Assembly (NCBI RefSeq): GCF_013170845.1
Contig: NZ_CP033367.1
Coordinates: forward strand, 3,225,001-3,289,000
From: Mesorhizobium loti R88b
GTDB taxonomy: Bacteria > Pseudomonadota > Alphaproteobacteria > Rhizobiales > Rhizobiaceae
Length of the DNA: 64,000 nucleotides
Direction: 5' to 3'
Shown: in pieces, positions 45,841 to 50,562 of the stretch
Position numbering within the stretch: the stretch's first letter is position 1
Layout of the letters: the number at the start of each line of letters is the position of its first letter
Translations under genes and position numbers: made by a program
The notes under the pieces: generated by a model
Database searches by the model: none
What the model was told of the DNA's origin: nothing
What the model saw: the letters and a program-made list of their open reading frames with translations, nothing else

Positions 45841-47550
45841 TTGAAAAGCGCGGCAGTTCAAATTGAGGCCTTTGACGAACCGAATCTGATCATGGGCAAG
45901 GCGCCCATCGTGCGTGCGGTCTTCGAGGGGCGAGATATCTCGCCCCTGTGGAACGAGCTGTTCGGGCGTGTTTCGGCCGATATCACCGATGCAGCGGCGT
46001 TTCTCGATGTGTCGATCCTGCTTCACGCCATAGGCGAGGAAGACAAGGCAGCGCTCAGCCAGAAGGCGGCACTCGATATCAGCCGCAAATACCGCATCCG
46101 CAACGGTCGCGGCACGGGGCCGAACGTGCTTGTCTTCATGACCGCCGGCGACTTCATGGCCAACACGCCGATCGAGTTCCTGCTCGAGACATCCGACGCG
46201 AACCTGCTGCTCTACTATGTCGATGCCGACACGGCCGACCTTGGGGACGTTCCCGCCCATGACGTCGCCTTCGTGGCTGTCGGCGAGTCCGCGGCAAACC
46301 TTGCCGTACTGGCGAACCTCGACCGGCTGCTGCGCGACTGGGCCGGCCCGATCATGAATAACGCACCGCGCCAGATCATGGCGCTGTCCAGGGACGGCGT
46401 CGCGGAAGCGCTGAAAAGCGAGCCTTCGATACTTGCGCCTGCCGCAGCGCGCGTTGATAGGGTCGTGATCGAGAGGCTGGCTGGCGGGGACATCGAGATC
46501 GGCGCGATCCTGGTGGCGAACGCGTTCCCGGTGATTGTCCGCCCGCTCGGCACGCATGCCGGCAAGGGAATGGAGAAAATCTCCACCCGCGCGGAGCTTT
46601 CAGCCTATCTGACTTCGCACGCCGAGACCGAATTCTACGTCACGCCCTTCATCGACTACAGCGGCACCGACGGCAAGTTCCGCAAGCAGCGTGTCGCCTT
46701 CATCAATGGGCGTCCCTATGCCAGCCATCTTGCGGTTTCCGAGCACTGGATGGTCCATTATCTCAACGCCGGCATGACCCAGCACGAAGACAGGCGTGCC
46801 GAGGAGGCGCTGTGGATGGCGAATTTCGACAGTGATTTCGCGGTGCGCCACGCGCGATCCTTCGATGCGCTGCATCGGCGTCTGGGGCTGGACTATTTCG
46901 CCATCGATTGCGCCGAACTCGCCGACGGCCGCCTGCTGGTATTCGAGGCGGATGTGGCGATGATCGTCCATTCCATGGACTGGGAGAGTATCTTTCCCTA
47001 CAAGAAGGGCGCCATGCGCAAGCTCTTCACGGCGTTCGAAAACGCGCTGGAGCGGCGCGTGGCGCGCATGCTGCCGACACCGACCACAGCATGCGCCCAC
47101 ACGGGAAAGTCGGCGATCTACCAGCGAACCCATGACGACTGCCTGGTTTGCGCCCTGGCGATGCTGACGGGCCGAACCTACGAGGAAATCGAGGCCATCG
47201 CGCGAGGCTGCGATCCGGCCTATCCGCTCGGCGGGCCGATGAGCCATTCGATCATGCGCGGCGTTGCCAACAAATGCGGTTTCGTTCTCCTGAGCAGCAT
47301 CTACATGCTGTGGGCCAAACCGGCGATCATAGGCGTGGTTTCGCCGACCGTCCCCGACACCGGCCACGCCGTCTTCTGGGACGGCGAGAAGATCATCGAT
47401 CCAGGCTTCTGCGGACGTGTCGATCGTGCCTATGTCGACCGGTGCGGGCTGGAATTCACGCAGCGCGCCAGTGATCTCCAACCGCTGATCAGCCACGACA
47501 TCCAGATCTCCTATCTGGCCGGTGCCGTGGCGGCCAATGAACCGCTTTGA
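45841..47550 (+). CDS. ATP-grasp ligase fused to C39-like cysteine peptidase domain
   Basis: A 569-residue two-domain protein. Residues about 190-400 look like an ATP-grasp ligase (RPLGTHAGKGME from about 235, EFYVTPFIDY, FRKQRVAFINGRPY, DYFAIDCAEL, VFEADVAMIVH). Residues about 425-569 look like a papain/C39-fold peptidase with candidate triad Cys434 (THDDCLVCALAML), His509 (GHAVFWDG) and Asp520 (IIDPGFC). The first ~190 residues contain a tetratricopeptide-like helical part. TTG 45841 is taken as start because AGAAGG lies 9 nt upstream; ATG 45892 is an alternative. The fusion could join amino acids and then cleave or transfer a product. The 3' end slightly overlaps possible starts of the next gene. 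Function is not known. Confidence 0.75.
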   Translation: MKSAAVQIEAFDEPNLIMGKAPIVRAVFEGRDISPLWNELFGRVSADITDAAAFLDVSILLHAIGEEDKAALSQKAALDISRKYRIRNGRGTGPNVLVFMTAGDFMANTPIEFLLETSDANLLLYYVDADTADLGDVPAHDVAFVAVGESAANLAVLANLDRLLRDWAGPIMNNAPRQIMALSRDGVAEALKSEPSILAPAAARVDRVVIERLAGGDIEIGAILVANAFPVIVRPLGTHAGKGMEKISTRAELSAYLTSHAETEFYVTPFIDYSGTDGKFRKQRVAFINGRPYASHLAVSEHWMVHYLNAGMTQHEDRRAEEALWMANFDSDFAVRHARSFDALHRRLGLDYFAIDCAELADGRLLVFEADVAMIVHSMDWESIFPYKKGAMRKLFTAFENALERRVARMLPTPTTACAHTGKSAIYQRTHDDCLVCALAMLTGRTYEEIEAIARGCDPAYPLGGPMSHSIMRGVANKCGFVLLSSIYMLWAKPAIIGVVSPTVPDTGHAVFWDGEKIIDPGFCGRVDRAYVDRCGLEFTQRASDLQPLISHDIQISYLAGAVAANEPL

Positions 47551-47590
47551 CCGCGAACAGCTCGCCGTCGCCCTGATTTCGGAGAACATC

Positions 47591-49129
47591 ATGCCTGCAA
47601 ATCAGCGCGGGACCCTAGTGGCGCCGCCAGGTCCGGACCAGCAAACGGGCAGCCATGATCACCGTTCCCCGGCGTCCGTTTCCTTCCTGCTCGGTACGGG
47701 TGGAGACAGGCGTATCTGGTTGGATGCGATCACCCGGCGCAACCGCTACGGGACGCGCACCACCCCGGCTGATGACGAGATCTCATTTTCGTCGACAACG
47801 GCAAGCAACATCTCGCGCGAGGGTTTTCAGGCGGCCGGGGTCGAGGCCGCGCGCCTTATCGACATGGCGTCGCCGTCGCCTGTCGCATCCGCGCAATGGT
47901 TTGCCGATATTCGCGACAGGATTGCCGGCAATCTTGGTTGTGCGGGCGCGCAGGTCGTGCTTGCCGCCTCCGGGACGGATGCGGAGCTTCTCGCTTTGTG
48001 CATGATTGCCGGCGTCTCCGGGCGCCCCTTGACCAATGTGCTTGTCGCGCCGGACGAAACGGGCAATGGCGTGCCACGCGCGGCGGCGGGGCGTCACTAC
48101 TCCGATCTGACCGCGCTGGGCAGCGCCGTCGAGGCCGGTGCGCCGCTTGAAGGCCTGGCGCCGGACCGTATCGACGTGCGCACCATCGCCATCCGCAACG
48201 AGACCGGCGGACCTCGCCGCCAGCATGACATTGATGCCGAGATCATCGCCACCGTCGGGCTCGAATTGAAGCGCGGTCGCGATGTGCTCGTCCACGTGCT
48301 CGATGCGTCGAAGACCGGCCTGCCGGCGGTAACCCGGCAGGCCGCGCGCCATGTCGCGGCCCTTGCCCCCGGGCGGGTGCATGTCGTCGTCGATGCCTGC
48401 CAGTTCCGCGGCTCGATTTCGCGGCTGCGGCAGGACTTGGCCGATGGCTTCATGGTCGCCCTGACCGGATCCAAGTTCATTGCCGACCCGCCTTTTTCGG
48501 GCGCGCTCCTCATACCCGAGGCCCTGGCCGAGGCGCTTGCCGCCAGGTCGGCCATTCCGGTGGGGCTGGCGGACTACACGGCGGCGCAGGACTGGCCGGT
48601 GGCCCTTCGTCAGCGCATGGGCTTCGCCTTCAAGTCGGAAATGAACCTTGGACTGGGTTTGCGCTGGGTTGCCGCGCTCGCCCATCTCGACCGCTATGCC
48701 GCGATCGATGAATCCCGGCAAGGGCTGCTGAAGGACGAGTTCGTCCGTCTGGTGCTGTCTCGCATCGGCGCCGTCAAAGGCATCTCCCTGCATCCTGATG
48801 ACGAAGGCGACCATCTCGGCGCCAGCGCCATGGTACCGTTGACCATCACCGACGGTGACGGCGCTTTCGCTTCGTTCGAGGTGTGCCAGGCTGTCCAGCT
48901 GTCGATGCGCGGCTTCAATGGCGGGCCGATCTGCCGTATCGGGCAAGCCGTGCGCCTGGGCTCGCGCACGGTGCTGCGCGTTGCCGCCTCCGCTGCCGAT
49001 GTGGTCGGCGTTTCGGCGCGCATGGCAGCCGGCCAGTCGCTGCAGCAGGCGTTTGGTCCGATCGAATCCAGGCTCGACGTCTTCTTCCAGAAATTGGCTG
49101 TTGTCCTGCAACAGGCAGGGGAAGCCTGA
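47591..49129 (+). CDS. PLP-dependent enzyme, class V aminotransferase fold
   Basis: A 512-residue fold-type I PLP enzyme. The small-domain start and glycine-rich PLP phosphate loop are at VLAASGTDAELLAL. The cofactor Asp is in HVVVDACQFRGS and the probable Schiff-base Lys is Lys295 in ALTGSKFIADPPF. The sequence is divergent and I cannot name the reaction (aminotransferase, lyase or decarboxylase). ATG 47591 is chosen for the GGAGA just upstream; ATG 47537 would overlap the previous gene by 14 nt. Middle gene of the three-gene cassette, with its stop touching the next start (TGATG). Confidence 0.78.
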   Translation: MPANQRGTLVAPPGPDQQTGSHDHRSPASVSFLLGTGGDRRIWLDAITRRNRYGTRTTPADDEISFSSTTASNISREGFQAAGVEAARLIDMASPSPVASAQWFADIRDRIAGNLGCAGAQVVLAASGTDAELLALCMIAGVSGRPLTNVLVAPDETGNGVPRAAAGRHYSDLTALGSAVEAGAPLEGLAPDRIDVRTIAIRNETGGPRRQHDIDAEIIATVGLELKRGRDVLVHVLDASKTGLPAVTRQAARHVAALAPGRVHVVVDACQFRGSISRLRQDLADGFMVALTGSKFIADPPFSGALLIPEALAEALAARSAIPVGLADYTAAQDWPVALRQRMGFAFKSEMNLGLGLRWVAALAHLDRYAAIDESRQGLLKDEFVRLVLSRIGAVKGISLHPDDEGDHLGASAMVPLTITDGDGAFASFEVCQAVQLSMRGFNGGPICRIGQAVRLGSRTVLRVAASAADVVGVSARMAAGQSLQQAFGPIESRLDVFFQKLAVVLQQAGEA

Positions 49130-50562
49130 TGCCGCTGCCTGTCGAGCAGAATGACGCGGGCGAGACCAGCCTTGATCCCGCGGACTGGGACGAATTCCGC
49201 GCGGTCGCGCACGGCCTGCTCGATGACATGATCACCCACATCGAGACGATCCGGCAAAGGCCGGTATGGCAGCGGCCAAGCGATGAAGCGCGTGCCCGGT
49301 TTGACCGACCGCTGCCGCACGGCCCCCGCGACCTCGGCGATGTCGTCGATGACGTGCGCACGCACATCATGCCGTTCGCGACCGGCAATCTGCATCCCTC
49401 GTTCATGGGCTGGGTTCATGGCGCGGGCACGCCGATCGGCATGGTGGCCGAAATCGTCGCCGGCGGCCTGAACATGAATTGCGGCGGCCGCGACCATGCC
49501 GGTCTCGTGGTCGAACAGCAGATTGTGCGCTGGATGAGCGAGGCGCTCGGTTATCCCGGCGGAGCCAGCGGCTTGTTCCTCACCGGATCCTCGATGGCAA
49601 ACTTCGTCGCGTTGACGATCGCCAGAACCGAAGCGACGGGGCAGTCGGTCCGGGAAACCGGCCTGCGCGGCGCTGACCGCCAGCTTGTCGCCTATACGTC
49701 AACCGAGGCGCATTCCTGCATCGCGCAGGCCATGCAACTGTCCGGCATCGGCTCGGCCAATCTGAGGACCGTCGCGGTTGACGATGCGGGACGGATGCTG
49801 CCCGGCGCGTTGCGCACAGCCATCGACCAGGATCGCGTCAGCGGATTCCTGCCGTTCCTGGTCGTGGGGACCGCGGGAACGGTCAATACCGGGGCCATCG
49901 ATCCGCTGGCTGAAATCGCCGAAATCGCATCGAGGGAAGGTCTCTGGTTCCATGTCGATGGCGCGATCGGTGCGCTCGCCGTGCTGTCCGATACGCTGCG
50001 GGGACTGTTCAAGGGCATCGAGAAGTCGGCATCGGTGGCGCTCGACTTTCACAAAGGGGGCCAGGTTCCCTACGATGCCGGGTTCCTTCTGGTGCGCGAT
50101 GGAGCTGCCCAGAAGCGGACATTCGCGCAGCCGGCCGCCTATCTGCAGCGCGCCGATCGCGGGCTTGCCGCTGGCGAGACCTGGCCGTGCGATCTCGGCC
50201 CGGACCTGTCGCGCGGCTTCCGCGCCTTGAAGACATGGATGACGATCGAAGCGCTGGGAGCGGATCGTATCGGCGGCTCGATCGCCCATACATGCAGGCT
50301 CGCCCGCCATCTCGCCGAACGCCTGGAACGCCATCCGTCCTTTGACTTGAAAGCGCCCGTCGCGCTCAACATCGTCTGTTTCGGCATTCGCGGGGCGGAT
50401 TCCGAGTTTGTCCGCAACCTAGGCCTGGCCGCGCCTTCGTGGACAACTCTCAACGGTGAACTGGTCGTGCGCTGCGCCATCGTCAACCATCGCACGACGG
50501 AGGCCGACATCGATGCGTTCATCGATACGCTTGACCAGTATCTGACCGGTTGGAGCGGCTAG
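49129..50562 (+). CDS. PLP-dependent group II amino acid decarboxylase (AADC/GAD-like)
   Basis: A 477-residue decarboxylase of the aromatic-L-amino-acid/glutamate decarboxylase family. Motifs: NLHPSFMGWVHGAGTP near the N-terminus, LFLTGSSMANFVAL (PLP phosphate), FLVVGTAGTVNTGAIDPL, FHVDGAIGAL (cofactor Asp) and the Schiff-base Lys309 in LDFHKGGQVPYDAG. It probably converts an amino acid, or an amino-acid-containing product, to an amine. The start overlaps the previous stop (TGATG), indicating coupling. The stop overlaps, by 4 nt, the stop of the convergent 90-aa gene. Confidence 0.88.
   Translation: MPLPVEQNDAGETSLDPADWDEFRAVAHGLLDDMITHIETIRQRPVWQRPSDEARARFDRPLPHGPRDLGDVVDDVRTHIMPFATGNLHPSFMGWVHGAGTPIGMVAEIVAGGLNMNCGGRDHAGLVVEQQIVRWMSEALGYPGGASGLFLTGSSMANFVALTIARTEATGQSVRETGLRGADRQLVAYTSTEAHSCIAQAMQLSGIGSANLRTVAVDDAGRMLPGALRTAIDQDRVSGFLPFLVVGTAGTVNTGAIDPLAEIAEIASREGLWFHVDGAIGALAVLSDTLRGLFKGIEKSASVALDFHKGGQVPYDAGFLLVRDGAAQKRTFAQPAAYLQRADRGLAAGETWPCDLGPDLSRGFRALKTWMTIEALGADRIGGSIAHTCRLARHLAERLERHPSFDLKAPVALNIVCFGIRGADSEFVRNLGLAAPSWTTLNGELVVRCAIVNHRTTEADIDAFIDTLDQYLTGWSG

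Follow-up and report, generated by a model that had tools for sequence, protein, structure and literature searches.

A recurring trio of an ATP-grasp ligase and two pyridoxal phosphate enzymes from Mesorhizobium loti, linked to flagellar genes in several relatives

RESULTS

A three-gene cassette in Mesorhizobium loti R88b

We analyzed a three-gene cassette in a 64,000-nucleotide (nt) stretch of the Mesorhizobium loti R88b genome (C1:3225001-3289000; hereafter, the window). The genome is a single contig of 7.2 Mb and is Mesorhizobium-type, the window proteins having their nearest named relatives in Mesorhizobium. The genes, here called A, B, and C (Table 1), encode an ATP-grasp ligase with additional tetratricopeptide repeat (TPR)-like and C39-like parts and two pyridoxal 5′-phosphate (PLP) enzymes. 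All three reading frames are open within the window, as the first-pass annotation of this DNA had reported, and the genes are co-directional with head-to-tail overlaps. Coupled translation (TGATG) had been proposed for B and C; the ATG of C at 49129 does share one base with the stop codon of B, and, beyond that proposal, the A/B junction overlaps as well. Both overlaps follow from the start of C and from the most plausible start of B, ATG 47537 (not 47522), which lies 14 nt inside the end of A. The start of A is TTG 45841, with AGAAGG upstream, or possibly ATG 45892. Between Mesorhizobium copies, the ratio of nonsynonymous to synonymous substitution (dN/dS) was 0.09 to 0.24 for A, B, and C, indicating purifying selection. 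Because all three genes are under such selection and recur jointly (see below), the arrangement is more than chance, and the trio is confirmed as a real cassette.

TABLE 1 Positions of the cassette genes, the parts of A, and the conserved upstream region, numbered from the first letter of the window
Feature	Position	Strand	Description
Gene A	45841..47550	+	Open reading frame (ORF), 569 amino acids (aa); TPR-like N terminus, RimK/LysX-like ATP-grasp ligase, C39-like C-terminal domain
Gene B	47537..49129	+	ORF, 530 aa; no Pfam match; class V-like PLP enzyme of fold type I
Gene C	49129..50562	+	ORF, 477 aa; PLP group II decarboxylase
TPR-like helices	45898..46080	+	A residues ∼20-80; four helices in model
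ATP-grasp domain	46120..47064	+	A residues ∼94-408
C39-like domain	47098..47550	+	Q428, C434, H509, D520
Conserved region upstream of A	45724..45840	+	DNA kept between Mesorhizobium copies, even where the surrounding locus differs

Recurrence of the trio in other Proteobacteria

Does the cassette recur? A single scan of GTDB genomes with one A protein, which reaches close relatives only, returned 57 A-type loci; C was present in 29, B in 19, and all three in 17. The neighborhood therefore recurs in other Proteobacteria, the outcome on which the first-pass annotation had staked its proposal. Gene orders were A-B-C, C-A-B, C-A, and A-B, with opposite strands in a few loci, and B-A-C in a genus that we label g40. 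Gene calls in the relatives came from our own scripts and are rough, some being false ORFs (for example, L035:11751-15353).

Within Mesorhizobium, A was found in 14 of 146 genomes, and B and the C orthologue were each found in 13, the same 13 genomes. This orthologue is distinct from paralogues of ∼43% identity that are common in the genus, 124 of the 146 genomes having some match at E 1e-60. Genome G145 has no C and retains only a short piece of B, and in G036 both A and B are in two pieces. Across 347 sampled genomes of the order, with up to four candidates scored per genome and misses possible, A occurred in 20, B in 16, and both in 14 (P = 1.4e-18). When 22 genomes with no partner gene in the flank of A were searched, 8 had C (>650 bits) and the same 8 had B, which was partial in two and in two pieces in one. 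C lay beside a second A in G170 and G175 and beside B in G174; in others, the genes were far apart.

Gene A: an ATP-grasp ligase with an optional C39-like part

A reached no cut-off in the Pfam search. Its structure model (mean pLDDT, 91) and fold matches nevertheless bear out the ATP-grasp domain proposed earlier: the ligase part has the ATP-grasp superfamily fold, and the amide ligases RimK, LysX, and ArgX are its nearest solved folds. A differs from the RimK family in its TPR-like and C39-like additions and falls far below the family cut-off (11.3 bits against 143.4 for TIGR00768). Residues R207, R234, R284, D356, and E369 are invariant in 72 aligned A sequences and D371 is present in at least 90%; at two columns that are invariant in the other rows, window A is changed. 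The family profile of A matched designed and natural TPR proteins over profile positions 23 to 82 (best E value, 6.1e-19).

For the C-terminal domain, a Cys434/His509/Asp520 triad had been predicted. The triad is kept in relatives and extends to a tetrad with Gln428; Gln, Cys, His, and Asp in that order are typical of C39. In the 54 fused relatives (those of at least 540 aa among 120 listed A matches), Gln428, His509, and Asp520 are present in 54/54 and Cys434 in 52/54 (one Ser, one Ala). A stand-alone query gave 44 shorter relatives, which may include fragments: His and Asp are kept in all 44, Cys in 34 of the 34 that cover it, and Gln in 31 of the 34. Foldseek with the whole A model returned a phage "Peptidase C39 domain-containing" protein (E 4.7e-4, 141 columns, TMt 0.61); the C39 region was taken as the aligned part of this match, the domain having been folded within whole A only. 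The PDB fold matches shown for the model were dominated by ATP-grasp chains, and the C39 Pfam models matched neither A nor a stand-alone relative (L066:10028-10486). The fusion had also been called rare. Its C39-like tetrad stands, but its uniqueness does not, since the same 54 of 120 listed relatives are fused. The C39 part is optional in the module: a Caulobacterales genome encodes it as a separate, overlapping gene, and some Mesorhizobium genomes (including G011 and G020) have an A without it.

Genes B and C: two PLP enzymes

B had been described as a divergent class V PLP enzyme. The structure model and fold search do place it, by fold, among the class V-like fold-type-I PLP enzymes, but the corresponding family, PF00266 (Aminotransferase class V), did not match: Pfam returned 0 families for B and for three distant relatives. 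D286 and K313 (in VDACQ and TGSKF) are invariant and are candidate PLP residues, and window B is unchanged at every column that is invariant in the other rows of its alignment. Foldseek ranked carbon-sulfoxide lyases first; a second structural alignment showed none among 50 rows, which excludes nothing. In Neorhizobium and Shinella (L086:4551-8284 and L091:6690-10589), genes for an S58 peptidase and a class IV transaminase of the D-amino-acid type precede B, a context that is a hint as to the substrate of B. In two Rhizobium genomes (L089 and L093), B adjoins a glutathione-dependent disulfide-bond oxidoreductase. A sugar-transfer-associated ATP-grasp gene (PF14397) follows ∼40 nt behind B in L105:8740-11583, in a genome without an A match, and EF-P follows B in L042, a single case.

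The call of C as a group II decarboxylase was upheld by PF00282 (190.3 bits against a cut-off of 27). Its nearest PDB entry is 4obu (320 bits by profile), named as the Ruminococcus gnavus tryptophan decarboxylase. C remained below the cut-offs for L-2,4-diaminobutyrate decarboxylase (NF052646; 162 against 900) and PanP (TIGR03799; 115.3 against 606.1). K309 is invariant in the alignment, and window C is unchanged at every column invariant in the other rows. It does lack a 7-residue stretch (VLDLQES in L015) that is present in the other 24 aligned rows, and at the PLP lysine it reads HKGG where 23 of 24 other rows read HKW. The loop of aromatic decarboxylases carries a catalytic tyrosine; none is visible in C, but the R. 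gnavus enzyme likewise lacks one by alignment, and we dropped this as a clue.

Linkage to flagellar genes in relatives

Where does the module lie in its relatives? Linkage to flagellar genes was found in several lineages and was unseen in most of the 57 loci. Genus g40, which at a guess is Bradyrhizobium-like, belongs to the same order as the window genome and has genomes of 4.3 to 10.4 Mb. A was found in 69 of 107 of them at E 1e-80 and flbT in 105 of 107. In all 69 genomes with A, flbT lay on the contig of A at a distance of 1.6 to 3.6 kb, on the opposite strand in 68. Six g40 loci were read, and all six are inside a hook/filament cluster: flgE-flgK-flgL, a glycosyltransferase (GT)-like gene (five of six), B (four of six), A, and C, then flbT and flagellin. 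The GT-like gene was recognized by eye; it has no Pfam match, and its PDB match to dolichol-phosphate mannose synthase reached only E 0.25.

Other lineages show different arrangements. In another family (L112), C and A adjoin flgE-flgK-flgL and flbT. In L113, a gene for an ATPase with a T3SS_ATPase_C domain precedes A by ∼120 nt, in a cluster with FliG and with flagellins ∼14 kb off. In three Rhizobium loci (L030, L034, and L088), C-A stands between flagellin genes; a TPR protein of glycosyltransferase family 41 (GT41) lies next to them in L030, and L034 holds a homologue. The Methylobacter locus L043 has C-A-B followed by a dioxygenase-like gene, a sugar aminotransferase, and TPR-type proteins, one of which clusters with the Rhizobium GT41 protein. 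Its flagellin (identified by eye and by Pfam model) is ∼14 kb from B, across sugar-modification genes and outside the fetched flank. We also scanned 147 neighboring proteins of 120 to 900 aa, at most five per locus, from 30 hand-picked loci, of which L112 was already known to be flagellar. Flagellin_N and Flagellin_C ranked first (8 members each) and Flg_bbr_C sixth (3 members), with all 8 flagellins coming from L030 and L034.

The Mesorhizobium copy

Can a flagellar role be carried over to the window copy? Such a transfer would be an argument from relatives, and several results weigh against it or limit the flagellar explanation in general. In the window genome, flagellin genes (C1:2395783-2409302) and A (C1:3270841) are ∼860 kb apart, so that linkage is absent from this genome itself. 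Flagellar queries against the fetched flanks of the 57 loci matched in L030 and L034 only, and in no Mesorhizobium locus. The flagellar-linked copies showed no match to the C39 part, and window A alone has no TPR match, the TPR-like signal coming from the family profile. B was not found at E 1e-30 in five of seven tested genomes with C-A pairs, and 2 of the 16 genomes with B have no A. Rhizobium lusitanum carries both a flagellar-linked A (L088) and an unlinked second A of the window's clade (L026), and the two kinds may differ in job. Flagellin genes were present in 40 of 40 sampled genomes with A compared with 27 of 40 without (P = 3.8e-5), a comparison that taxonomy confounds and that is based on 80 genomes chosen by the analyst. 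In the A tree, whose midpoint root is for drawing only, flagellar-linked genes fall in several places among rows without known linkage. By itself, this tree does not nest the window's clade among flagellar-linked genes: one branch can part the flagellar from the fused rows, and support is incomplete (94/87 and 92/67) at the forks that unite the clade with the Rhizobium flagellar A.

We consider it very improbable that the Mesorhizobium cassette is the decaying remnant of a formerly flagellar module that has lost its full job. The presence of A in so few Mesorhizobium genomes fits such decay, as do the incomplete or split copies in G145 and G036, the loss of the C39 part in G011 and G020, and the missing residues and HKGG of window C; the low dN/dS of all three genes argues the opposite, as does the retention by window B and C of every column invariant elsewhere (two are changed in A).

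Surroundings of the cassette

Blastn blocks begin at 45724-45735 in all six Mesorhizobium stretches compared, including L078, where the cassette alone matches. Within 45724-45840 lies an imperfect palindrome, GCTCGCACAAGC, that is kept across loci of differing context and is a possible operator. A 15-codon ORF (45766-45813) was considered as a leader or carrier peptide and rejected, its frame being broken in several other loci. An upstream sugar ABC transporter was likewise rejected as a member of the unit because its presence is inconsistent: it is close to A in the window and in L023 and L077, it stands behind A in G145 (L072), and no copy was found in stretches L073, L075, or L076. The blocks flanking the cassette are arranged otherwise in other Mesorhizobium genomes. 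On the minus strand of the window, 37561-40866 encodes a large protein that by eye is caspase-like with repeats.

Three further observations concern neighbors of A elsewhere. Genes for EutB and EutC (ethanolamine ammonia-lyase) follow 24 nt behind A-B in L033:12772-14923, a single case. Neorhizobium, Shinella, and Caulobacter (L027, L028, and L029) encode large ALTTAQ-repeat proteins (PF20080) close to A. Behind A in L113:9707-13638 is a gene set, picked out by eye, which we take to be a circularly permuted ATP-grasp, alpha-E, transglutaminase, and proteasome-like set.

DISCUSSION

We tentatively favor the explanation that the trio is an amide-decoration module acting on a flagellar protein or its glycan. 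The trio probably makes an amide bond. C would produce an amine by decarboxylating an amino acid or amino-acyl intermediate, B would make or remodel a second small building block, and A would activate a carboxylate with ATP and form the amide bond. The likely recipient in the family would be a flagellar filament or hook protein or a glycan on them. The C39-like domain, fused in Mesorhizobium and some Rhizobium, may hydrolyze, trim, or transfer the product. The computation shows the folds, the conserved residues, the gene overlaps, the co-occurrence, and the flagellar linkage in several relatives; the order of reactions, the substrates, the recipient, and the C39 role are our inference, and the unlinked Mesorhizobium copy may do the same job.

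The TPR-like part of A could be a docking site, much as FlmG is held to flagellin. This Caulobacter flagellin glycosyltransferase is presented in PMC7591256 as a modular enzyme whose TPR part binds flagellin. A further likeness is that TPR-GT41 or GT-like genes are found close to the module in Rhizobium, Methylobacter, and g40; FlmG differs in being a GT-B glycosyltransferase, whereas A carries an ATP-grasp ligase and its binding of flagellin is putative. A narrower version, in which TPR-docked A would join a decarboxylated amino acid or a related amine by an amide bond to flagellin or hook protein itself and the C39 domain would act as an eraser, seems unlikely to us, and such a modification was absent from the literature searched.

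The first-pass annotation had suggested a small amine- or peptide-like metabolite. A free metabolite is the main rival explanation and is possible, if doubtful. An amine from C, joined by A to an amino acid or another acid, would give a pseudo-dipeptide, B would provide an unusual amino acid, the C39 domain would hydrolyze or transfer, and flagellar linkage would be regulatory or incidental. The trio is indeed a compact unit whose neighbors vary between loci, the PDB neighbor of C is an aromatic amino acid decarboxylase, and the transaminase and peptidase in front of B in Neorhizobium and Shinella would suit such a product. Ligase-decarboxylase logic is also known from E-64-type amides (PMC12568646). 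Yet rough clustering of the neighbors gave no one transporter family that accompanies the trio from locus to locus, although generic ABC ATPases occur somewhere in 10 of the 57 loci. Linkage in 69 of 69 g40 genomes with A and differing flagellar arrangements elsewhere also count against a free metabolite. The position of the module within flagellar loci or close to flagellin in several lineages points instead to decoration of a surface structure.

Could the recipient be an envelope or capsular polysaccharide, with A coupling the amine made by C to a sugar acid as an amide? In the Campylobacter jejuni HS:2 capsule, an amidoligase of the ATP-grasp type attaches serinol or ethanolamine to glucuronic acid (PMC11800379). 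The two systems would share the transfer of a small amine to an amide on a surface polymer (by the ATP-grasp domain of Cj1438 in HS:2), and the title of one reference in that article points to two PLP enzymes in the HS:2 pathway. The Campylobacter ligase is described there as TupA-like and fused to GT2, compared with a RimK-like fold in A, and the HS:2 pathway uses phosphorylated amines and acts on a capsule, not a flagellum. By analogy, HS:2 amidation is the closest working parallel, and we do not claim the trio as a member of any named system. The Pfam matches of A included no TupA-type family. The sugar-transfer-associated ATP-grasp gene behind B in L105 and the sugar aminotransferase near the Methylobacter copy would fit a polysaccharide, but no glycan genes were identified among the annotated part of the neighbors of the Mesorhizobium cassette, and flagellar linkage is more specific; we regard this explanation as quite unlikely.

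Two other systems resemble parts of the trio. Glutathionylspermidine synthetase/amidase joins an ATP-grasp amide synthetase and a papain-fold cysteine amidase in one chain, with the amidase at the opposite end from the C39 part of A and no known PLP partners. It belongs to another ATP-grasp family: PF03738, which we take to be its synthetase domain, gave no match to A at E values of up to 1. In the butirosin side-chain set, BtrJ is the ligase and BtrK has another PLP fold. BtrJ, BtrK, and BtrH act together as ligase, PLP decarboxylase, and C39-related acyltransferase, but on an acyl carrier protein and an aminoglycoside, and we saw no gene for a carrier protein in the window cassette. The methylofuran proteins MyfA and MyfB were considered from their description in PMC8141765.

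No description of the module was found in the titles and abstract starts of the open-licence literature searched for the module, its parts, and parallel systems; a mention in the Iyer 2009 amidoligase review is possible. For the Bradyrhizobium subpolar flagellum, glycosylation is only suggested in one review (PMC8429497). A and B are below Pfam cut-offs and yet form with C a module that recurs in Proteobacteria. Its recurrence near flagellum genes suggests an undescribed route of flagellar decoration, and its position beside flbT in every g40 genome sampled that bears A offers a directly testable target. An amide ligase with a built-in hydrolase-like domain, if borne out, would be useful to enzymologists, and confirmation of the target would bring amide chemistry into flagellar decoration.

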